NCBI GenBank assembly: GCA_905182415.1
Contig: CAJJBK010000017.1
Span: 1 to 43,864, forward strand
Direction of reading: 5' to 3'
From: an uncultured Woeseiaceae bacterium
Lineage (GTDB): Bacteria; Pseudomonadota; Gammaproteobacteria; Steroidobacterales; Woeseiaceae
Length of the DNA stretch: 43,864 nt
Shown here piece after piece: positions 29,853 to 40,822 of this stretch (its first letter is position 1; every line of letters begins with the position of its first letter). The notes below the pieces were generated by a model. The model saw only the letters and a list, made by a program, of their open reading frames with translations. It did no database searches and had not been told where the DNA came from. Position numbers and translations under genes: made by a program.

Positions 29853-31028
29853 ATGCCAAGTTTTATTTATTTATTAAACGTAGTTCTAATCCTTAGCTTC
29901 AGTTCAGTTTTTTCGGATACAAATGAGAGGCCAAGAGCACGTGAAGCCGGACTTATTATTGGTATTTTTGAGCCTGGACCTTACAACGCCATTACTGATG
30001 TTGAAGGCGTTAAGGTTGGACATGTAACAAAAATCGAAGGTAATGATATTCGAACCGGCATTACGGCCATCATTCCCGCTCCAGGAAATCTTTATACACA
30101 CCCGATACCGGCATGGATTCATGTAGGGAATGGCTACGGTAAGATGATCGGAGAGACTCAGGTTCGTGAGTTTGGAGAAATAGAAACACCCATCCTTTTG
30201 ACTTGCACATTATGTGTTTGGAGTGCTGCGAATGCACTCAAAGAGTGGATTTACGAGCAACCAGGAATGGGGGAGCATACAGTAAACCCGATTGTGGGTG
30301 AAACCAATGATGGCGCTGTCAATGATATGTGGGCAGATCCAATTCAAAAAGATGAGGTATTCACGGCATTGAAGATTGCTCATAATGGTCCAGTAGAAGA
30401 GGGCAGTATTGGAGCAGGTACAGGTACGCAAGCATTTGGTTGGAAAGGCGGAATTGGTTCAAGCTCAAGAGTCTTACCCCAATCTCTGGGCGGTTATACG
30501 ATTGGCGTACTTGTACAGACCAATTTTGGCGGTATTTTGACTATGAATGGCGCTCCAGTAGGAAGAGAATTAAATCAATATTCATATAAAGATAACCTGA
30601 TTGATACTGCAAATGAAGATAAAATTGACGGTTCGATTATGATCGTAGTGGCTACCGATGCCCCTTTAAATGCGAGAAGCTTAGATCGTTTAGCAATGCG
30701 CGCCATAATGGGTTTAGCAAGAACAGGTTCTCATGCAAGTAATGGCTCTGGTGATTATGTCGTGGCTTTTTCAACCCACCCATCAGTTCGACGCCCTCGC
30801 CTGAGTGACAAACCAATAACATCGTTGTCTTTGGTTAATGCATCTATGTCACCCTTATTTGCTGCCACAGCAGAAGCTACCGAAGAAGCAATTTATAATG
30901 CTATTTTTAAAGCTACAACTATAGAAAGTGATCGAGGAATTCGAAAGGCTATTCCGCTAAAAGATCTTATGCGTATTCTAGAAAAATATAATGCCCTTCA
31001 TTGGGATAAGAATATTACAAACAAATAA
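29853..31028 (+). CDS. secreted P1-family peptidase (DmpA/beta-aminopeptidase-like)
   Basis: 391 residues with a signal peptide ending near residue 21 (SSVFSD). Hallmarks of the DmpA/BapA N-terminal nucleophile family are visible: ITDVEGVKVGHVT, NPIVGETNDG, GSIGAGTGT and DGSIMIVVATDAPL. In this family the precursor cleaves itself before the catalytic serine, here Gly260/Ser261, giving two chains. Members remove N-terminal amino acids, D-amino acids or beta-amino acids from short peptides. It is exported, so it should supply free amino acids in the periplasm, consistent with the D-amino acid and racemase genes nearby. No clear ribosome binding site precedes the ATG. It lies 35 bases after the DUF5916 gene. 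Confidence 0.88.
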   Translation: MPSFIYLLNVVLILSFSSVFSDTNERPRAREAGLIIGIFEPGPYNAITDVEGVKVGHVTKIEGNDIRTGITAIIPAPGNLYTHPIPAWIHVGNGYGKMIGETQVREFGEIETPILLTCTLCVWSAANALKEWIYEQPGMGEHTVNPIVGETNDGAVNDMWADPIQKDEVFTALKIAHNGPVEEGSIGAGTGTQAFGWKGGIGSSSRVLPQSLGGYTIGVLVQTNFGGILTMNGAPVGRELNQYSYKDNLIDTANEDKIDGSIMIVVATDAPLNARSLDRLAMRAIMGLARTGSHASNGSGDYVVAFSTHPSVRRPRLSDKPITSLSLVNASMSPLFAATAEATEEAIYNAIFKATTIESDRGIRKAIPLKDLMRILEKYNALHWDKNITNK

Positions 31029-31140: not shown

Positions 31141-32685
31141 GTGCAGCATTTTGATACGATCATTATTGGTGGCGGACACAATGGTCTGGTATGTGCAAAT
31201 TATCTTGGCAAGGCCGGTCAAAAAGTATTACTTATAGAGGCCTCTGAGAAACTAGGCGGCTTAGCCGCAACACGTGAATTTTATCCTGGTTTTAAGGCTA
31301 GTGTAGCTCATGCCATCAATCAGTTTCCTGAAAAAATTGTTTCAGATTTAAATTTAACTAGATTTGGTTATGAGCAAAGTTCGAGAAGTATGAAAAATAT
31401 CGGACTTGATCTAGAAGGTAATCATGTATTCGTCACGCAAGATGGTTTGTCAGGTGTATCCGATAAGGAAGTCAGGCAATATGATTTATATATAGCTTCT
31501 TTAAAACGCTTTGCAAAAGCACTACAACCATTTTGGATGAAAAAAATGCCTGCGATTGGTGGTAATACTATCGCTGAAATTCTGACATTTATTCAGATTG
31601 GCTTGAAGCTTAAATTGCTCGGTAAAAAAGACATGCGTGAATTACTTCGTGTGGCTTCTTTGCCAGCTAGAGACTTGATGGATGAAAATTTTGATTCAGA
31701 TTTACTCAAAGCAACTCTAAGTTGGGATGCATTGGTTGGTTCAACTCAAGCTCCTCGTTCACCAAACAACTCAATATTGACCTTATTGTACCGAATGGCT
31801 GGTAATCATCATGGTCATTACATGCTCCCTGAAGGTGGTGTTCAAAGCTTGATAGATGCACTAACTGATGCTGCAAAAAGCGTTGGAGTGGAAATTCGCT
31901 GTGACTCACCGGTCAAAAAAATCTCAATAAAAGCTGACAAAAATGGAGTCAAGGCGGAAGGAGTGATTTTAGATGGAGGAGAAGAAATTACGGGCGATCG
32001 TGTTATTTCTGCGCTAGATCCAAAGCAAACATTTATTAATTTAGTAGGTGCCGAACACTTAGAAATTGAATTTTTGAATCGAATTAATCGTCTTCGAACA
32101 GATGGTTATGTGGCAAAACTTCATCTGGCTTTATCTGATATTCCTAACTTTACAGGAATCGAAACATTGGATGATCGTTTTATTATTGCACCAACCATGG
32201 ATACCATAGAATTCGCATGGGATGATGCTAAATATGGGCAATGTCCAGAAAATCCTGTAATCGAAATAGTTATTCCAAGCCTTAATAGTCCTGCCTTGTC
32301 TCCGGAAGGAGGGCATGTTCTCTCTGCGAATATTATGTATATACCGTATCGAAAAAAAGGGGGCTGGTCAGAAGAATCAAAAGCTCATCTTGTAAAGAAA
32401 TTACTAAATACGCTGGATCAATATTCTCCAGGATTATCAGAAAAAGTTATTCATGCAGAACTTTTAACGCCAGTCGACCTTGAGAAAGATTGGCGGGTTA
32501 CAGGTGGTCATTGGCATCATACAGAATTAGCATTGGATCAAATGTTAATGATGCGACCAACTTATGAAGCCGCTCAATATCAGACACCGGTGGATGATCT
32601 TTATATTTGTGGTGCTGGCTGTCATCCGGGCGGTGGTCTAATGGGCGCAGCTGGATTCAATGCGGCAAAAGTGATCTTAACATGA
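31141..32685 (+). CDS. PYROXD2/phytoene desaturase-like FAD oxidoreductase (first of a tandem pair)
   Basis: 514 residues from GTG 31141, preceded by AAGG at 31129-31132; an upstream TTG at 31108 lacks a site and adds residues before the FAD motif. The N-terminus is TIIIGGGHNGLVCANYL, then LGGLAATREFYPGFKAS; the C-terminus has CGAGCHPGGGLMGAAGFNAA. This matches PYROXD2-like members of the phytoene desaturase/amine oxidase superfamily. The substrate is unknown. Its stop overlaps the start of a second PYROXD2-like gene (ATGA), so the two are translationally coupled and may form a heteromer or act in sequence. No carotenoid gene is present, so carotenoid synthesis is unlikely. Confidence 0.85.
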   Translation: MQHFDTIIIGGGHNGLVCANYLGKAGQKVLLIEASEKLGGLAATREFYPGFKASVAHAINQFPEKIVSDLNLTRFGYEQSSRSMKNIGLDLEGNHVFVTQDGLSGVSDKEVRQYDLYIASLKRFAKALQPFWMKKMPAIGGNTIAEILTFIQIGLKLKLLGKKDMRELLRVASLPARDLMDENFDSDLLKATLSWDALVGSTQAPRSPNNSILTLLYRMAGNHHGHYMLPEGGVQSLIDALTDAAKSVGVEIRCDSPVKKISIKADKNGVKAEGVILDGGEEITGDRVISALDPKQTFINLVGAEHLEIEFLNRINRLRTDGYVAKLHLALSDIPNFTGIETLDDRFIIAPTMDTIEFAWDDAKYGQCPENPVIEIVIPSLNSPALSPEGGHVLSANIMYIPYRKKGGWSEESKAHLVKKLLNTLDQYSPGLSEKVIHAELLTPVDLEKDWRVTGGHWHHTELALDQMLMMRPTYEAAQYQTPVDDLYICGAGCHPGGGLMGAAGFNAAKVILT

Positions 32686-34301
32686 AGAGTTACGACGCAA
32701 TTATTGTAGGAGCGGGTCATAATGGTTTGACCAATGCTGCGTATCTAGCAAGAGCGGGCCTGAAAGTTCTGGTTGTAGAAAAAAATGATTACATCGGTGG
32801 TGCTGCAGTTACCAGAGAAATGCATAACGGTTGGTTTTATTCAAGTTGCTCTTATGTTTGTTCAATGATGCGTCAATCTATTCATCGAGATCTAGATTTG
32901 ACACGTCATGGGTTAATTTTAGTTCCATATTTAGGGACAGTAAATTTTGGCGATAATGGAGAAACCCTTTCTGCTTACCATGCCGAGGGTCCTTACTATA
33001 ACGAGCTAAGATCACACTCACCACATGATGCTGATGCGATGTTTAGGTTGCAAGCAGATCTTAGTCGCTATGCTCAATTGATCCGCAAAACACTAATGAG
33101 GACACCACCAGACCCCACCTCATTAAAGCCAAGAGATATCAAGGAAATGTTATTTTTAGCAAAAGAATTTGGAAATCTTGGTGAAAAAGAATTCTATGAG
33201 TACGTTCGTTTTTTTACCATGAGTGCTGCTGAGTTTCTTGATGATTATTTTGAGAATGACCTTATCAAGGCAACTATGGCAGGAGCTGGAATCATTGGAA
33301 CAGCTTTGGGGGTTTATTCACCCGGTTCAGCTTATATATTGTTGCATCATGTGATGGGTGATGTTGATGGAAGTATTGGTGCATGGGGATTGGCCCGTGG
33401 TGGAATGGGGTCAATATCAAAGGCAATTGCAGGAGCATTAAAAGAGGCTGGAGGTGAGATCAGAGTGAATGCCGGGGTTCAGCAAATTCTTGTAAAAAAT
33501 GGACGAGCAATTGGTGTTGCTCTTGAGAGTGGTGAAGAGATAAATGCTTCAATTGTTGTATCTAATCTTGATGCTAAACGTACTTTTACAAAAGTAATGG
33601 ATAAAAATGATCTACCCGAGGGTATTTATGAAAAAGCTAGAAATTTCAAGATCAGAGGTTCTTCGGGCAAGGTTAATATAGCCTTATCCGCATTACCTAA
33701 ATTTACCGGCTTGCCGGATAATAAATATATCAATAGAGGTGGGCAGGGATTTTGTGGGTCACTCGAAACAATGGAACGAGCTTACGATTGTTGGAAGCGA
33801 GGTACATGGTCTGATGATCCATTTATTGAATCAGTAATACCATCAGCATGGGATCCGACAGTGGCTCCACCTGGAAAACATTGGATGTCTAATTTTATTC
33901 AATATTGCCCATCAGAGCTTGCGGATGGACCATGGACTCCTGAGAAACGAGATCAATTTGGTCAGACGGTCGTCAATAAGATTGAGAGATATTCTCCTGG
34001 GTTTAAAGATTTAATTGTTCATATGGAGGTACGAACTCCATATGAAATTGAAAATGAGATCGGTCTTACTGAAGGAAATATCTTTCAAGGTGAGTTAACT
34101 ATTGATCAGTTATTATTTAACAGACCTTTTCCTGGCTATTCTCAATATCGAATGCCAATAAAGAATATGTATATGTGTGGTTCTTCGACTCACCCTGGTG
34201 GTGGAGTATCATCATGTTGTGGAGCAAATGCTGCCAGAGAAATATTAATAGACCTCAAAAAGCCAAATACGGTTCCAGAGGACGATTGCTATGACGAGTA
34301 G
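32682..34301 (+). CDS. PYROXD2/phytoene desaturase-like FAD oxidoreductase (second of a tandem pair)
   Basis: 539 residues starting at the ATG of an ATGA overlap with the previous gene; a longer frame from 32607 runs inside that gene and is not used. FAD motif AIIVGAGHNGLTNAAYL, then IGGAAVTREMHNGW; the C-terminal half has SVIPSAWDPTVAPPGKH, PYEIENEIGLTEGNIF and CGSSTHPGGGVSSC. These fit PYROXD2-like oxidoreductases more closely than its neighbour does. Divergence between the two copies suggests different roles rather than a recent duplication. A folate-dependent aminomethyltransferase starts 4 bases after its stop, so oxidation of an N- or S-methyl compound with transfer of the one-carbon unit to tetrahydrofolate is a reasonable model, not proven. 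Confidence 0.87.
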   Translation: MKSYDAIIVGAGHNGLTNAAYLARAGLKVLVVEKNDYIGGAAVTREMHNGWFYSSCSYVCSMMRQSIHRDLDLTRHGLILVPYLGTVNFGDNGETLSAYHAEGPYYNELRSHSPHDADAMFRLQADLSRYAQLIRKTLMRTPPDPTSLKPRDIKEMLFLAKEFGNLGEKEFYEYVRFFTMSAAEFLDDYFENDLIKATMAGAGIIGTALGVYSPGSAYILLHHVMGDVDGSIGAWGLARGGMGSISKAIAGALKEAGGEIRVNAGVQQILVKNGRAIGVALESGEEINASIVVSNLDAKRTFTKVMDKNDLPEGIYEKARNFKIRGSSGKVNIALSALPKFTGLPDNKYINRGGQGFCGSLETMERAYDCWKRGTWSDDPFIESVIPSAWDPTVAPPGKHWMSNFIQYCPSELADGPWTPEKRDQFGQTVVNKIERYSPGFKDLIVHMEVRTPYEIENEIGLTEGNIFQGELTIDQLLFNRPFPGYSQYRMPIKNMYMCGSSTHPGGGVSSCCGANAAREILIDLKKPNTVPEDDCYDE

Positions 34302-34304
34302 AAT

Positions 34305-35501
34305 ATGACAACTGACACTAAATTTGCTGATGAGCGTCTCAAGTTATCTCCTTTTCATGATAGACAGGCGGCATTAAATCTAAGAGATTCATGGTCTGTA
34401 TGGAATGGTTATAAGTTTGCTGATTATTATTATGATGCTGAGTATGAGTATTTTTGTGTCCGCAATACATGCGGTACTTACGATATTTGTCCCATGCAGA
34501 AGTATCTAATTGAAGGAGATGCTGCTGAGGCGATGTTGAATAGGATGGTGACACGTGATATCACTAAATTAAAAGAACATCGTGTTACATATGTTTGTTG
34601 GTGTACCAACGAAGGTCGTATGATTGATGATGGGACTATTTTTAAATTGGGCCCAAAGAAGTTTATGCTTACTTGTGGTTCACCAAGTTTGGCTTGGCTC
34701 AAAAAAGCCAGTTTTGGTTTTGACGCAGTCGAAATTAAGGATATTACTGATACTCTAGCGGCACTATCATTCCAAGGGCCCACTACATTTTCAGTTTTAA
34801 AAGAAATGAGCTTGAAAGGCATAGAAGATTTAAAGCCATTTCAGATTGGGTATTATGATTTTGCTGACACTAAATTAATGATCTCACGAACTGGATTTAC
34901 TGGTGATCTGGGTTATGAGTTATGGATTGAAAATGATAATGCTCTAGAGCTATGGGATACCCTATATGAGATAGGTGAAAATTATGGTATTCAGCCTTAT
35001 GGTGAAGCGGCCACGAATATGGCTCGCTTAGAAGCTGGATTCATCATGCCGTATATGGAATTTAATGAGGCACTAAAGACAGTGCATTATCAACATGATC
35101 AAACCCCTTTTGAGCTCAACTTGGGTTGGTTGGTCGATTTTAATAAACCACTTTTTAATGGTCGACAAGCTTTACTTTTAGATAAAGAAAATGGCCCTAA
35201 ATATACGCTCACAAAACTTGATATTGAAGGCAATAAACCTGCAGAAGGATCTTATATTTATGGTGACAAAAAATGCTCTTTAGAAATTGGTTACGTCACT
35301 TCAGCCATGTGGTCGCCGGCCGTTAAGGCTAATATTGCAATGGCCATGATAAAAACCGAGTATCTTCATGGTGAAATTTGGGCTGAAATATATTACGAAA
35401 AAGAACTACGACAATACGATAAAGTGGCACGTTGTAAGATTAAAGAGAAACCATTCTGGGCCCCAAGCCGAGCTCGGATGACTCCCCCGGAAAAGTATTA
35501 A
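34305..35501 (+). CDS. GcvT-like tetrahydrofolate-dependent aminomethyltransferase family protein
   Basis: 398 residues, cytosolic, of the GcvT/DmdA/sarcosine-dimethylglycine dehydrogenase C-terminal family. Visible are SPFHDRQAALN near the N-terminus, EYFCVRNTCGTYDICPM, TNEGRMIDDGTIF with the conserved acidic pair Asp108-Asp109 at the position of the T-protein catalytic aspartate, and SFQGPTTFSVLKEM. The TGFTGDLGYELWIE segment is the usual GcvT signature. Such proteins move a methyl or methylene group from a substrate to tetrahydrofolate. It is 4 bases after the second PYROXD2-like gene and 21 before an unknown membrane protein. Glycine cleavage is unlikely because gcvH and gcvP are absent. 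Candidate substrates (betaine, dimethylglycine, DMSP or another methylated compound) are inference. Confidence 0.87.
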   Translation: MTTDTKFADERLKLSPFHDRQAALNLRDSWSVWNGYKFADYYYDAEYEYFCVRNTCGTYDICPMQKYLIEGDAAEAMLNRMVTRDITKLKEHRVTYVCWCTNEGRMIDDGTIFKLGPKKFMLTCGSPSLAWLKKASFGFDAVEIKDITDTLAALSFQGPTTFSVLKEMSLKGIEDLKPFQIGYYDFADTKLMISRTGFTGDLGYELWIENDNALELWDTLYEIGENYGIQPYGEAATNMARLEAGFIMPYMEFNEALKTVHYQHDQTPFELNLGWLVDFNKPLFNGRQALLLDKENGPKYTLTKLDIEGNKPAEGSYIYGDKKCSLEIGYVTSAMWSPAVKANIAMAMIKTEYLHGEIWAEIYYEKELRQYDKVARCKIKEKPFWAPSRARMTPPEKY

Positions 35502-35522
35502 TGGTCGTCTGTAAATAAATTA

Positions 35523-36347
35523 ATGACCACTAGAGTAGAGTTTCGTCAATTTCTAAAAATAGCTATTTATAGTTTATTACTTGTTAATTTTATTCTTTAT
35601 ATAATTGATGATATAAGGATTGCATCATACACCATGAGAAATGGTGGCTCACTTCTTGAGTGGACGCGTGCATTTGCTACTACAATAGATGAATCCGCCT
35701 GGTTGATTTTACTTTTTCTGTTTGAGCTAGAGACTTATCTCCTTTCTGATCAGACCCTTAATAGACCTATTTTTAACAGAATAATGTATGTGATCAGGAT
35801 ATTCTGCTATGTATTTTTAGTTCACTCTGTGTATGCCTTTAGTATCATTTATATTGATCTAATCAAGGTTGAGTTAATTCCAAACGTATCTAATTTATGT
35901 GAATTAGTGCCAATGGATCTCTCGTTTGTAAGGAATTTATTTTATACAGAAATTGATTTAAAAAATTGCTTATCACTTTCATCGGATCAGGTTTTTTATT
36001 TTACGGAACCTGCTTTGGTCGTATCAGATATCAGTGGCTTAAGATTAGAAAAAAATCTAGCATTAGTCGATATACTGGAAGTCCTTGTGTGGCTCCTTAT
36101 ATTGTCGACCATTGAGATTATGGTTTGGTTGCATGATAAAGCAATTACAAGAGGGTCACTGATATCCTTTATGCGAGGTGCAAAATATATACTTTATGGA
36201 TCATTATGGTCGATAGCAGCATATTGGACATATCTTGGTCATTATTATTTTGCTTGGGATGAAGCTCTCTGGATTGTTGGCTTTATTTCGATAGAAATGA
36301 ATGTGTCTGATTGGAGAAAAGAGATTGAAGAAGGCAGTCAAGGTTGA
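35523..36347 (+). CDS. unknown multi-pass membrane protein
   Basis: 274 residues with five or six hydrophobic helices (about residues 9-28, 57-75, 85-110, 185-205, 220-255). A region rich in charged and polar residues lies in between (about 115-180) and has two cysteines, CELVP and NCLSL, that may face the periplasm. Motifs such as TTIDESAWLILLFLFELETY and VHSVYAFSIIYIDLI mark a family of proteobacterial membrane proteins for which I know no function. No enzyme motif is visible. The position in an operon with PYROXD2-like and GcvT-like genes and a cupin suggests a role in uptake, sensing or electron transfer for that pathway; this is inference. No clear ribosome binding site precedes the ATG. 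Confidence 0.75.
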   Translation: MTTRVEFRQFLKIAIYSLLLVNFILYIIDDIRIASYTMRNGGSLLEWTRAFATTIDESAWLILLFLFELETYLLSDQTLNRPIFNRIMYVIRIFCYVFLVHSVYAFSIIYIDLIKVELIPNVSNLCELVPMDLSFVRNLFYTEIDLKNCLSLSSDQVFYFTEPALVVSDISGLRLEKNLALVDILEVLVWLLILSTIEIMVWLHDKAITRGSLISFMRGAKYILYGSLWSIAAYWTYLGHYYFAWDEALWIVGFISIEMNVSDWRKEIEEGSQG

Positions 36348-36393
36348 CAAAATTAAAGAGTATTTCAATTGATTAATTTAAAGGAGAGTTTAA

Positions 36394-36738
36394 ATGCCAG
36401 AAATAAAAGTTCAGCATCAATGTGCGTCTAAGAGTGATTTGGTTCTAACAGAAACATTCGGTGAAGCCATTGGGCCTATGCCAAAGCAAACTGATAGTGG
36501 TTTCTTTGAGGAAGGAAATCTAATCTCAGGAACTTGGGAATGTGAACCAGGTAAATTAGAATTGGCGCTTGAAGTGACTGAGTTTTGTCACATATTAGAG
36601 GGGCACTGGATTCTGACTTCAGAATCTGGTCAAGTTACGGAAGTAAAAGCAGGGGATAGTTTTGTTTTTCCTAATGGATGGAAAGGTATTGCTGAAGTTA
36701 AAGAAAAGTTGAGAAAAGTTTATATGATGATTCTCTAA
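36394..36738 (+). CDS. small cupin-domain protein (Cupin_3/DUF861 type)
   Basis: 114 residues, one cupin barrel. The motifs SGTWECEPGKLELAL, EVTEFCHILEGHW and KAGDSFVFPNGWKG match the Cupin_3 (ureidoglycine aminohydrolase-type, EutQ-like) family, often found beside catabolic oxidoreductases. The usual metal ligands are only partly kept, so catalysis is not assured; it may bind a ligand. AAGGAG precedes the ATG at good spacing. It is the last gene of the PYROXD2-like operon, and a terminator overlaps its stop codon. Confidence 0.82.
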   Translation: MPEIKVQHQCASKSDLVLTETFGEAIGPMPKQTDSGFFEEGNLISGTWECEPGKLELALEVTEFCHILEGHWILTSESGQVTEVKAGDSFVFPNGWKGIAEVKEKLRKVYMMIL

Positions 36739-36767: not shown

Positions 36768-38057
36768 TTACTGATAAATCTGTTTATAAATGACACCACC
36801 CTTCATTACAAAATGTACTTTCTCCATAAGACGAATATTTTCTAGAGGATTGCCTTGTATAGCGATAACATCAGCGATTTTACCTTTTGTAAGACTGCCA
36901 TGAGTTTCTGCCAAACCAAGAAAATCGGCAGCAATACTGGTCGCTGACTGTATTGCTTCCATTTCTGGCATGCCCGCTTTTACCATAAGAGCAAACTCTT
37001 GAGCATTATCTCCATGAGCTGATACGCCTGTATCTGTTCCAAAAACGATGGGTACACCAAATTCATAAGCCTCAGTGAATGTATTGATTGCTACAGGACC
37101 TATTTCTGCTGCTTTTGGACGTACTAAATCTGGAAAAAATCCATCAATTTTTGCCTTTTCTGCAACCCAACTTCCTGCTAAAAGTGTGGGTACAAAAAAA
37201 GTTCCACGCTGTTTCATGAGAAGCATAATTTCACGATTCATATACGTGCCATGCTCAATTGAGGCAACTCCAGCCATGACGGCGCGTTTCATTCCTTCGG
37301 TCCCATGTGCATGTGCAGCAACACGCAATCCATAATCTTTTGCAGTTTTTACAATCGTATTTAACTCAGCATCTGTAAACTGGGGATTTTGACCACTTTT
37401 TGCAACACTCAATACCCCACCTGTAGCTGTTACTTTGATCCAATCAGCTCCGTCTTTGTAGCGTTGTCTGACTGCTTTTCTAGCATCATCTTCGCCATTA
37501 ACGATGCCATCTTTTGCATTTTGATTACCCGTTATTATTTTTGCCCAGCCATTTGTTGAATCTCCATGCCCACCTGTGGAGCTAAGCGTTTTTCCTGCAC
37601 TAAGAATTAATGGGCCAGGAACTATCTTATTATTGATGGCTTTTCTTAGAGCAATAGTGACATTGTAAGAATCTCCAAGATTTCTAACCACAGTGAAACC
37701 TGCTTCAAGTGTCTTCTTTGCATACATAGAGGCATTTAATGCATAGTCAGCTTCATTTAAAACAAAACGTTGAAGTTGGCTCTTTGCGTTGTATTCACCG
37801 GTTAAGTGAACATGAGTATCCATTAATCCCGGCATAACCGTGCTTTCTTCAAGATTAATGACGGTATCATCATCAGTTGGTATTGAGAATCCTGGTGCTA
37901 TCTTGCTGATGGTATTTCCATTAATATGGATAGTCGCATTAGGTTGCATCTGGTTAGAAATACCATCAATAATATTACCAGCATAGATCAAAGTATCGGC
38001 ATTAGGACTGTTATTAATAAAAGCAATTCCAATGAGACATGTAATTATTTTTTTCAT
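36768..38057 (-). CDS. exported amidohydrolase, prolidase/imidazolonepropionase-like
   Basis: 429 residues with a short signal sequence (about 1-20, ending NSPNADT). Metal ligands of the amidohydrolase superfamily are visible: His82 and His84 (MDTHVHLTG), Lys208 in DWIKVTATGG (probably carbamylated), His249 (VAAHAHG), His269 (SIEHG) and Asp342 (FGTDTG). This pattern fits the group that includes bacterial Xaa-Pro and other dipeptidases as well as imidazolonepropionase-like hydrolases. Export argues for a dipeptidase. AGGA lies upstream of the ATG. It is divergent from the NSS transporter-DadA pair, which could take up and oxidise its product. Confidence 0.85.
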   Translation of the reverse strand: MKKIITCLIGIAFINNSPNADTLIYAGNIIDGISNQMQPNATIHINGNTISKIAPGFSIPTDDDTVINLEESTVMPGLMDTHVHLTGEYNAKSQLQRFVLNEADYALNASMYAKKTLEAGFTVVRNLGDSYNVTIALRKAINNKIVPGPLILSAGKTLSSTGGHGDSTNGWAKIITGNQNAKDGIVNGEDDARKAVRQRYKDGADWIKVTATGGVLSVAKSGQNPQFTDAELNTIVKTAKDYGLRVAAHAHGTEGMKRAVMAGVASIEHGTYMNREIMLLMKQRGTFFVPTLLAGSWVAEKAKIDGFFPDLVRPKAAEIGPVAINTFTEAYEFGVPIVFGTDTGVSAHGDNAQEFALMVKAGMPEMEAIQSATSIAADFLGLAETHGSLTKGKIADVIAIQGNPLENIRLMEKVHFVMKGGVIYKQIYQ

Positions 38058-38158: not shown

Positions 38159-39538
38159 ATGTCATCAAGCTCTTCAGTTACACAAGAACAATGGTCATCA
38201 CGTTATGGGTTTTTGTTAGCCTCTGTAGGTTTTGCTGTTGGCTTAGGAAATATATGGCGTTTTCCCTATGTGACTGGCCAAAATGGAGGCAGTGCATTTT
38301 TATTCATTTATTTAGCAGCAGCATTAATTATAGGGTTGCCATTACTCATTACAGAATTATCTATCGGTAGACGAGGTAAGAGTAGTGCGCCTGGAAGTAT
38401 TGTGAATGTAGCCAAAGCAAGTGGAGCATCACGTTCGTGGGGGTTAGTTGGAAGCCTTGGAGTATTTTGTGCATTCATCATTCTGTCTTATTACAGCGTA
38501 ATGTCAGGATGGACTTTAGATTATTTCTTTCGTGCTGCTTCAGGATCACTTGAAGGCATTACGGCCAAAGAATCCATGGAGATGTTCAGTGCATTAAATA
38601 ATAATCCATGGAAATTATTATTTTGGAATACCATCATATATTTATTAGTTATTTTTGTGGTTCGTCAAGGGGTACAAGCAGGAATTGAAAGAGCGGTAAA
38701 AGTACTTATGCCTGCTCTATTTGTTATTCTCATCGTCATGATGATTTATAGTGCTATTGCAGGAGATCTGATGGCCGCTACACGTTTTTTGTTAGAGCCT
38801 GATTTCTCAAAGGTGACATCTAGTATGATTATGCAAGCTGTTGGCCAAGCCTTCTTCTCTATAGGAATAGGTTGGGGAACACTGATTGTATTTGGCTCAT
38901 ATTTACCTGATGATGTTTCAATACCAAAGTCAGCGGTGATTCTTATCTTTGCTGATACATTTGTGGCCTTACTTGCTGGTTTTGCAATATTTCCTTTGGT
39001 ATTTGGCTATGGATTAACCCCAACAAGTGGTGCGGGTTTGGCTTTTGAAACACTTCCATTGGCTTTTGGTCAAATGCCAGGTGGAGCATTTTTTGGTGCC
39101 TTATTTTTCTTATTACTCATTACTGCTTCTTTATCTTCTTGTATCGGTATTGCTGAAAGTGTGGTGTCTTGGGTCAGTGATAAATGGAATATTGAACGTC
39201 AAAAAGGCATTTTATTAACCGCATCAATGGCATGGTTTTTGGGAATATTCTCAATTTTATCTTTTGGAAAGTGGTCAGATTTTTATCCATTAGAATTTAT
39301 TCCTTTATTTGCAGGCAAAACAATTTTCTATTCACTGGATTTCTTGGCAGCTAATATTTTATTGCTTATTGGTAGTATGCTAGTGGCAGTATTTTTTGGC
39401 TGGTTTACTACTAAAAAAATCAAAGAAATTGAGATAGGTATTGAGAGTCCTCAATGGTTTGATTTTTGGCATTTTATGATTCGCTTTATTGTGCCATTAG
39501 TCTTATTTATAATACTAGTAATGGCTTTTGTGGAGTAA
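38159..39538 (+). CDS. Na+-dependent amino acid-type transporter (NSS/SNF family)
   Basis: 459 residues with about 12 hydrophobic helices, LeuT-type fold. The TM1 motif VGLGNIWRFPYVTGQNGG is the family signature, with residues that bind Na+ and substrate in LeuT. The ATG 38159 follows AAAGGGG. Bacterial members import amino acids or related compounds with Na+. The D-amino acid dehydrogenase gene starts 6 bases after its stop, so its cargo is probably the dehydrogenase substrate. The amidohydrolase gene is divergent and separated by 101 bases. Confidence 0.92.
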   Translation: MSSSSSVTQEQWSSRYGFLLASVGFAVGLGNIWRFPYVTGQNGGSAFLFIYLAAALIIGLPLLITELSIGRRGKSSAPGSIVNVAKASGASRSWGLVGSLGVFCAFIILSYYSVMSGWTLDYFFRAASGSLEGITAKESMEMFSALNNNPWKLLFWNTIIYLLVIFVVRQGVQAGIERAVKVLMPALFVILIVMMIYSAIAGDLMAATRFLLEPDFSKVTSSMIMQAVGQAFFSIGIGWGTLIVFGSYLPDDVSIPKSAVILIFADTFVALLAGFAIFPLVFGYGLTPTSGAGLAFETLPLAFGQMPGGAFFGALFFLLLITASLSSCIGIAESVVSWVSDKWNIERQKGILLTASMAWFLGIFSILSFGKWSDFYPLEFIPLFAGKTIFYSLDFLAANILLLIGSMLVAVFFGWFTTKKIKEIEIGIESPQWFDFWHFMIRFIVPLVLFIILVMAFVE

Positions 39539-39544
39539 GGTAAT

Positions 39545-40822
39545 ATGACAAACCTAGTTATTGGCGCTGGCCTAGTTGGTATTACCAGTGCTTATGAATT
39601 ACTCAAAAGAGGACAATCTGTTACTTTATTGGAGCAGCAGGAGGGACCAGCTCTTGGAGCTAGTTTTGCGAATGCAGGTATGCTCACTCCATCTATGTCT
39701 GATCCCTGGAATAGTCCCGGAGTATACAAATATTTAGCAAAGTCGCTTTTTAATCCGAGTTCATTTATGTGTCTTAGATTAAATGCTATTCCCTCATTAA
39801 TGGGTTGGGGTGTAAAGTTCCTTCGCTACTCATCAGAACCATATTTTAATGCTGCTCTTAAAGATAATTTTAATCTAACAACTTATTCACTAAGAAAGAC
39901 TCAAGAAATTGCTGATAAATATGATCTTCAATATTGTCGTAAATCTAAGGGCACTTTGAGTATTTTTAATACACCTGAGGATTTTGCTGTTAAAGAGGAT
40001 CTCTATAAAAAATTAAGTAAATTAGGTTTAAAGTGTTCAATTTTGAATCCAGATGAAATAATTTCTCTGGTACCTTCATTGGCATCAATTCGATCACAAT
40101 TACACAAAGGGATTCATTATTATCAAGATGAATCGGGCGATGCGCATCTTTTTTGTAAAGCCCTACTAGCAAAATATCTTGAGGCGGGCGGGCAAATACA
40201 ATATGGAGTTTCCGTTAAGTCATTGGCTATCTCAAATAATAAGATTACTGGCGTAAATACAGAGTCTGAATTTATACCTGCAAAGCGAGTAGTGGTAGCG
40301 AGTGGTGCTAATAGCCCAAGTATTTTGAAATCTGTAAATATTAATTTAGATGTTAAGCCCGCAAAAGGATACTCACTGACGATAAATGTCGATGGGGTGT
40401 CTGGTTTACCGTCATTGCCAGTATTGAATGACGCCATGAATGTTGTGGTTACACCGCTTGGAAATCGTTTGCGATTAGTGGGGACTGCAGAATTTTCAGG
40501 ATTCGACCTCTCCATTGATAAGAAGAGGATGGCAGCTCTTTTTGAAATGTTTGAATATATGTATCCAGAGATTGCTTCTCAAGTTGACCAGAATTCTGCC
40601 ACGCCTTGGGCTGGTCTGAGACCTATGAGTTGTGATGGTAAACCTTTTATTGGAGCTTCAAAGATAAAGGGTCTGTACATCAATAGTGGTCAAGGTCCGT
40701 TGGGATGGACATTGGCAATGGGCTCGGCAAATCTAATTGCTGATATTATGCTTGGTGCTCCTACTGAGATAGATGCTAAGCCATTTTCGATGATAAGAGC
40801 CGATAGGAATATATCTGTTTAA
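39545..40822 (+). CDS. dadA: D-amino acid dehydrogenase family flavoprotein
   Basis: 425 residues, typical for DadA, a membrane-associated FAD enzyme that oxidises D-amino acids to 2-oxoacids and ammonia and passes electrons to the quinone pool. The FAD motif is VIGAGLVGITSAYELL, followed by LGASFANAGMLTPSMSDPWNSPG, the hallmark of DadA. Late motifs are PWAGLRPMSCDGKPFIG and INSGQGPLGWTLAMGSA. It is coupled to the NSS transporter gene 6 bases upstream. The alanine racemase partner (dadX) is not adjacent; the racemase at 25661 is far away. Specificity for D-alanine is assumed from the family; other D-amino acids or hydroxyproline are possible. Its stop is 1 base from the stop of the convergent MFS gene. 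Confidence 0.87.
   Translation: MTNLVIGAGLVGITSAYELLKRGQSVTLLEQQEGPALGASFANAGMLTPSMSDPWNSPGVYKYLAKSLFNPSSFMCLRLNAIPSLMGWGVKFLRYSSEPYFNAALKDNFNLTTYSLRKTQEIADKYDLQYCRKSKGTLSIFNTPEDFAVKEDLYKKLSKLGLKCSILNPDEIISLVPSLASIRSQLHKGIHYYQDESGDAHLFCKALLAKYLEAGGQIQYGVSVKSLAISNNKITGVNTESEFIPAKRVVVASGANSPSILKSVNINLDVKPAKGYSLTINVDGVSGLPSLPVLNDAMNVVVTPLGNRLRLVGTAEFSGFDLSIDKKRMAALFEMFEYMYPEIASQVDQNSATPWAGLRPMSCDGKPFIGASKIKGLYINSGQGPLGWTLAMGSANLIADIMLGAPTEIDAKPFSMIRADRNISV

Follow-up and report, generated by a model that had tools for sequence, protein, structure and literature searches.

A conserved flavoprotein pair and a GcvT-like protein in an uncultured Woeseiaceae bacterium as a candidate flavin/folate demethylation system

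The window analysed here is the whole stretch of 43,864 nucleotides that forms contig CAJJBK010000017.1 (C17) of assembly GCA_905182415.1, a genome of an uncultured Woeseiaceae bacterium (1.8 Mb, 99.4% complete). It carries on its forward strand a run of five genes (31141-36738), the first three of which encode two flavoproteins (F1 and F2) and a GcvT-like protein with folate-binding domains (T) and are the subject of this study. F1 (31141..32685, 514 amino acids; Amino_oxidase 2.5e-20) was called as an open reading frame with a GTG start, from which its N-terminal residues align with those of relatives. F2 (32682..34301, 539 amino acids), also an open reading frame call with a Pfam Amino_oxidase match, overlaps F1 by four bases and is followed by T (34305..35501, 398 amino acids; GCV_T 5.4e-56, GCV_T_C 2.3e-9). 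Downstream lie the open reading frame of M (35523..36347, 274 amino acids), an accessory protein with hydrophobic helices, and an accessory EutQ-like cupin (36394..36738, 114 amino acids; Cupin_3 8.2e-21). The open reading frame analysis agrees with the first-pass annotation, made from the sequence alone, on five same-strand genes separated by -4, 3, 21 and 46 bases. The terminator placed after the operon in that annotation is a weak call: an A+T-rich hairpin with eight T after it is located at the cupin stop codon, but the terminator scan listed none at this place, and the stretch folds no more stably than shuffled sequences (z -0.20).

F1 and F2 are about 34% identical and belong to the same CrtI/amine-oxidase fold family. 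The Pfam Amino_oxidase match spans the full length of both proteins, and the best stretch of the DAO match covers only their first 36-41 residues. Their best NCBIfam model was the carotenoid ketolase CrtO, with 254.6 bits for F1 and 252.7 bits for F2 against a cut-off of 1000, which neither reached; the crtI_fam model likewise stayed below its cut-off of 238.1 (95.3 and 115.5 bits). Besides the desaturase considered below, the fold model of F2 matches putrescine oxidase (Z 22.4, 423 residues, root-mean-square deviation 4.1) and monoamine oxidase A (Z near 21); its predicted local distance difference test score (pLDDT) is a moderate 78.4, with low values in parts of residues 460-510.

T carries both Pfam domains of the glycine cleavage T-protein, GCV_T and GCV_T_C. 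Its residues Asp109, Glu205 and Arg241 are unchanged in 21 aligned relatives and align with Asp96, Glu195 and Arg231 of the Thermotoga maritima T-protein, which we take to have a folate-binding role. The best NCBIfam model for T was the trimethylamine N-oxide demethylase Tdm (227 bits over model residues 386-760, cut-off 1100), and T also scored below cut-off against the gcvT model (153.5 bits, cut-off 235.85), the dimethylsulfoniopropionate (DMSP) demethylase DmdA (141.3 bits, cut-off 410), LigM (61 bits, cut-off 580) and DesA (57 bits, cut-off 800). T misses the cut-offs of all five models: glycine cleavage T, Tdm, DmdA, LigM and DesA.

Matches to T at E 1e-70 or better were present in 62 of 99 relatives, and at E 1e-80 in only five of 369 genomes sampled across the class, the host genome included. 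A scan of public genome contigs yielded 571 confirmed candidates, of which 80 loci, chosen by similarity to T, were taken; their record titles name Woeseiaceae, Halieaceae, SAR92, Porticoccaceae, OM182, Lysobacterales, Kiloniella, Rhodospirillales and others. The module is scattered through other Gamma- and Alphaproteobacteria, with many marine and some soil carriers. Modules with two flavoprotein genes and T were also located on plasmids of Parasedimentitalea, Rhizobium sp. SL42, Fuscovulum and Shinella, these being the four clusters inspected among the seven best plasmid matches.

After units sharing the same T DNA stretch had been merged, 127 units at 118 loci were available for counting. 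They were divided into version A, in which T is at least 60% identical to T of the window (58 units), and version B, comprising the remaining 69. Cultured carriers include Halioglobus pacificus (L128) and strain HTCC2080 (L118) for version A and Kiloniella laminariae (L140) for version B. The flavoprotein pair stands upstream of T in 111 of the 112 units in which both upstream genes are visible; the count omits 15 of the 127 units, where the contig or locus ends too early (for example, one with 236 bases upstream, L094). Small irregularities were seen at two loci, one with a short open reading frame between the pair and T (L084) and one in which the F1 label was assigned to two open reading frames (L132). 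Complete triples showed fixed and opposite gene orders, F1-F2-T in 46 of 46 units of version A, which is the version of the window, and F2-F1-T in 50 of 50 units of version B. Inside each version, the protein distances of F1, F2 and T correlated with r of 0.67-0.86, a correlation that partly reflects shared species history, and the highest value among 999 permutations was 0.30 or less.

In the phylogenetic tree, F1 and F2 formed two deeply separated families (support 1.0), both represented in version A and in version B. Version A was recovered as a clade in F1 as well as in F2; version B was not recovered as a clade, and it may therefore comprise more than one version. Lys326 of F1 and Lys330 of F2 occupy a single alignment column, which holds Lys in 188 of 192 proteins and Arg in the other four, all four being F1 proteins of version B (46 of 50 with Lys; F2 of version B 50/50, F1 and F2 of version A 46/46 each). 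An essential Lys lies near the flavin in amine oxidases of the CrtI/amine-oxidase fold and may correspond to these two residues. A second module, not of version A, lies close to the first at nine of the 58 A loci; the T genes are 3.9-7.5 kb apart, and in eight of the nine cases the second module is on the same strand. The host genome also contains a B copy, an F2-F1-T cluster on another contig (C2) whose T is 49% identical to that of the window.

Co-occurrence of all five genes elsewhere, whose absence would count against the first-pass annotation, gave a mixed picture. F1-F2-T recurs nearly always and stands as the core, but the five-gene set is not universal. In the eight units of the window genus, F1-F2-T-M was present in all and the cupin in four, and beyond this genus only F1-F2-T is fixed. 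Neighbourhood counts used those units, 65 of the 127, that have 7 kb on either side (28 A, 32 B and 5 of the window genus); the controls were 40 windows of 15.2 kb, taken from six genomes within the same family. The associated Fisher values ignore relatedness, and every reference protein was drawn from a counted locus. Outside the window genus, M accompanied version A in 16 of 28 neighbourhoods and the cupin in 5 of 28, compared with none of the 40 controls for either. M and the cupin are optional accessories of version A. At E 0.01 neither Pfam nor NCBIfam gave a match for M. Its structure model is helical and confident (pLDDT 88.2), with simple hydropathy exceeding 1.5 in three regions only, so that any membrane topology is tentative. 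Foldseek returned no match to this model at E 0.001 or better, which is not proof of a new fold, and the best VIA-align Z was 7.9, a value that means little for helical proteins. Across the M family, compared here in M itself and 30 relatives from the analysed loci, two cysteines (126 and 149) are invariant, as are many Trp, Asp and Glu residues.

Regarding the other neighbours, the two versions keep different company; the names GbcA, AmaA and gamma-glutamylputrescine synthetase used here denote nearest models, with scores below cut-off. Version A neighbourhoods contained AraC regulators (19 of 28), AmaA-like DAO oxidases (17), MOSC proteins (11), the flavoprotein FADc10 (8) and SSF symporters (7), none of which occurred in the 40 controls. 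Around version B we found class III aminotransferases (24 of 32, versus 1 of 40 controls), TetR regulators (20 versus 0), acyl-CoA dehydrogenases (18 versus 1), CoA ligases (16 versus 0), GbcA-like Rieske oxygenases (15 versus 0), aldehyde dehydrogenases (13 versus 1) and polyamine-type binding proteins (7 versus 0). A glutamine-synthetase-like gene, whose nearest model is gamma-glutamylputrescine synthetase (189.5 bits, cut-off 650), was located near 4 of 28 A and 5 of 32 B units and in none of the controls; it hints at amine substrates and is too weak to lean on. The plasmid clusters have the arrangement TetR-F-F-T, with an aminotransferase between TetR and the module in Fuscovulum, and they include aminotransferase and ABC transporter genes. 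Three of the four contain Rieske-type genes, and flavin oxidoreductases likewise occur in three. The Fuscovulum ytuae plasmid region also bears a gene of the DMSP-lyase family (PF16867, L089:16542-17393). Within 7 kb of the module, TPR-sulfotransferase genes (e.g., L063:13839-15944) were observed in both versions, at 6 of the 50 A units from outside the genus and at 4 of the 69 B units.

Within the window, the operon is followed by two possible partners on the forward strand, a Na+ symporter of the SNF family (38159-39538) and a DAO-family oxidoreductase (39545-40822), both assigned by Pfam matches. All 5 full genus neighbourhoods have this pair (38159..40822) and none of the 28 other A neighbourhoods does; its membership in the system is uncertain because it is present in the window genus only. 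The operon is bordered by genes encoding an S58 (DmpA-type) peptidase (29853-31028) and an Xaa-Pro-dipeptidase-like amidohydrolase (36768-38057), which occurred in 5 of 5 full genus neighbourhoods and were each found in 0 of the 28 other A neighbourhoods.

From the genes, their families, conservation, co-inheritance and neighbourhoods, all of which are observed, we infer the reaction, the binding of folate, the complex and the class of substrate. F1, F2 and T probably form a flavin/folate oxidative demethylation system that delivers an N-methyl carbon to tetrahydrofolate. Three features together suggest the reaction class: the folate domains of T, a flavoprotein fold to which amine oxidases also belong, and neighbours of the amine/betaine type. 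The oxidative demethylation by two flavoproteins and a folate protein proposed in the first-pass annotation thereby gains comparative backing from co-occurrence, co-variation, the neighbours and the residues of T, while folate binding, substrate and complex are predicted. The conserved Lys column, the match of the F2 model to amine oxidases, the second modules near version A and the lack of an H-protein or gcvT above cut-off in the host genome also speak in favour of this system. In this scheme, F1 and F2 would jointly take two electrons from an N-methyl group, carried by a small amine or an amino acid, giving an iminium (or formaldehyde), and T with bound tetrahydrofolate would capture the one-carbon unit as methylene-tetrahydrofolate and free the demethylated amine, which neighbouring DAO-type oxidases, transaminases and dehydrogenases would then degrade. 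Version B would probably act after the GbcA-like Rieske oxygenase, and its substrate would best fit a compound that has a methylated nitrogen and whose carbon chain is finally turned into a CoA thioester; that of version A may be an amine or amino acid with a methyl group, which a DAO enzyme would oxidise at a later step. Side by side, A and B may remove successive methyl groups, and a second module near nine of the 58 A loci would be expected if two methyl groups were removed in turn.

Several observations weigh against this interpretation. At one locus (L166) a single flavoprotein accompanies T, the sole exception among the 112 units. The top structural match of the F2 model is the carotenoid desaturase 4rep (Z 31.5, 473 residues, root-mean-square deviation 3.0), and the model itself is of only moderate quality. 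The Lys of the conserved column also occurs in the uncharacterised protein 3nrn. No fusion of a flavoprotein gene with T was encountered among 932 open reading frames with a family match, and the family names of the GcvT relatives of T include S- and O-methyl activity. Version A has Rieske genes in 0 of 28, aminotransferases in 2 of 28 and aldehyde dehydrogenases in 4 of 28 neighbourhoods, and the case for an N-methyl substrate therefore depends in large part on version B, a paralogue. The formaldehyde-activating GFA, near 4 of 28 A units and in 5 of 40 controls, was dropped as support because control windows carry it equally often, and the ABC ATPase PotA is weakly enriched near version B (8 of 32, versus 3 of 40).

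The alternative that survives best, although we consider it unlikely, has F1 and F2 introducing a double bond into an amine or amino acid backbone, with T performing a separate, non-oxidative, folate-dependent methyl transfer, as DmdA does on DMSP. It draws on desaturases being the nearest relatives of F1 and F2 in sequence and fold and on the match of T to the DmdA model; however, T scores the oxidative and glycine-cleavage models above DmdA, the desaturase 4dgk has Val in the column of the conserved Lys (as judged by eye in the alignment), and the invariant pair directly before T suggests a single reaction. Less probable again is the removal of an S-methyl or O-methyl group, from sulfonium compounds or methoxy-aromatics, in place of an N-methyl group. 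T does match the DmdA, LigM and DesA models, all below cut-off, and the DMSP-lyase-family gene of the Fuscovulum plasmid cluster would suit this chemistry, but the LigM and DesA scores are low relative to their cut-offs, and the genes that recur beside the module encode aminotransferases, Rieske oxygenases like GbcA and oxidases of the DAO type. It is very improbable that F1 and F2 work on carotenoids or other lipids with T adjacent by chance. CrtO is indeed their best NCBIfam model and their best solved relatives are carotenoid enzymes; nevertheless, the CrtO scores are one quarter of the cut-off, the pair is tied to T in nearly every unit, and no carotenoid gene was present among the neighbour families examined, a subset of all neighbours, so that a lipid substrate is made less likely. 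That T might be the T-protein of the glycine cleavage system, for which its two shared Pfam domains speak, is scarcely credible and was rejected, as T misses the gcvT cut-off and the host genome has no H-protein, gcvT or P-protein match above cut-off.

The gene content of the host genome bears on this last point. Neither a glycine cleavage H-protein nor gcvT was detected above cut-off in the 99.4% complete genome, and we conclude that T does not belong to a glycine cleavage system here. Among 60 relatives, 53 have an H-protein above cut-off, 50 of them with more than 140 bits, and of the window genus only G007 is among these; G007 is also the only one of nine genus genomes with a P-protein above cut-off. 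The other three of the 53 are genus members (G002, G003 and G005) with H-protein matches of 25-27 bits. The window genus seems to lack glycine cleavage, several of the nine genomes being incomplete. Nine GcvT-like stretches were counted in the host genome. Five lie on a 65 kb contig (C5) and correspond to three DAO+GCV_T proteins and two sarcosine-oxidase-alpha-like genes, for one of which Pfam was run, and two further stretches are separate proteins with GCV_T and GCV_T_C. With three DAO+GCV_T proteins and two sarcosine-oxidase-like clusters on that one contig, this small genome is rich in genes for methylated amines.

Algae supply marine bacteria with methylated nitrogen compounds as an important food, and many of these compounds have no known breakdown genes. 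The conserved F1-F2-T, taken with the neighbourhood clues, makes it directly testable which methylated amines feed its carriers. If the proposed demethylation is true, a role would be gained for a branch of CrtI/amine-oxidase-fold flavoproteins now annotated generically, its members being called only 'NAD(P)/FAD-dependent oxidoreductase' in sequence records. In the open-licence literature, titles and abstract openings among the matches listed gave no description of this gene set, and a published account may exist. A bolder and rather doubtful extension is that F1-F2-T represents an undescribed demethylase class, in which a flavoprotein heterodimer of the amine-oxidase/CrtI fold would take the methyl carbon from N-methylated compounds made by algae (perhaps polyamines with methyl groups, or betaines bearing a terminal amine) and pass it directly to a free-standing GcvT-like folate protein; the versions would act sequentially on the same substrate, and in small marine genomes that lack glycine cleavage the class, together with enzymes of the dimethylglycine dehydrogenase type, would be a principal route by which one-carbon units enter folate.

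When compared to known systems, the closest parallels are two oxidative N-demethylases linked to folate, dimethylglycine dehydrogenase and the heterotetrameric sarcosine oxidase, in which an FAD enzyme is likewise coupled to a GcvT-like folate module. Their flavin part has the DAO fold, either as DAO and GCV_T in one protein or as a separate DAO subunit, and to our knowledge this is the fold of the flavin domain in the known folate-linked N-demethylases; in contrast, the window system has a CrtI/amine-oxidase-fold pair and a free-standing T; the GCV_T folate module was found in it and a DAO-family catalytic flavoprotein was not. Tdm provides the best NCBIfam model for T, and the solved Tdm structure 9q59 is among the best structure matches, but the N-terminal half of Tdm has no counterpart in T, and the cut-off was missed. 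DmdA is a free-standing GcvT-like protein, as T is, and its substrate is a methylated marine compound; we know of no flavoprotein partners of DmdA. CrtI/CrtO carotenoid enzymes share the fold and sequence family of F1 and F2, and differ in the missed cut-offs and in the Val of 4dgk. Gamma-N-methylaminobutyrate oxidase, which acts in nicotine breakdown, performs the folate-linked demethylation of an N-methylated amino acid; it is alike in its folate linkage and differs in being a single DAO+GcvT polypeptide. On the best reading of these comparisons, F1-F2-T would resemble the known folate-linked N-demethylation, but with a different flavoprotein fold.

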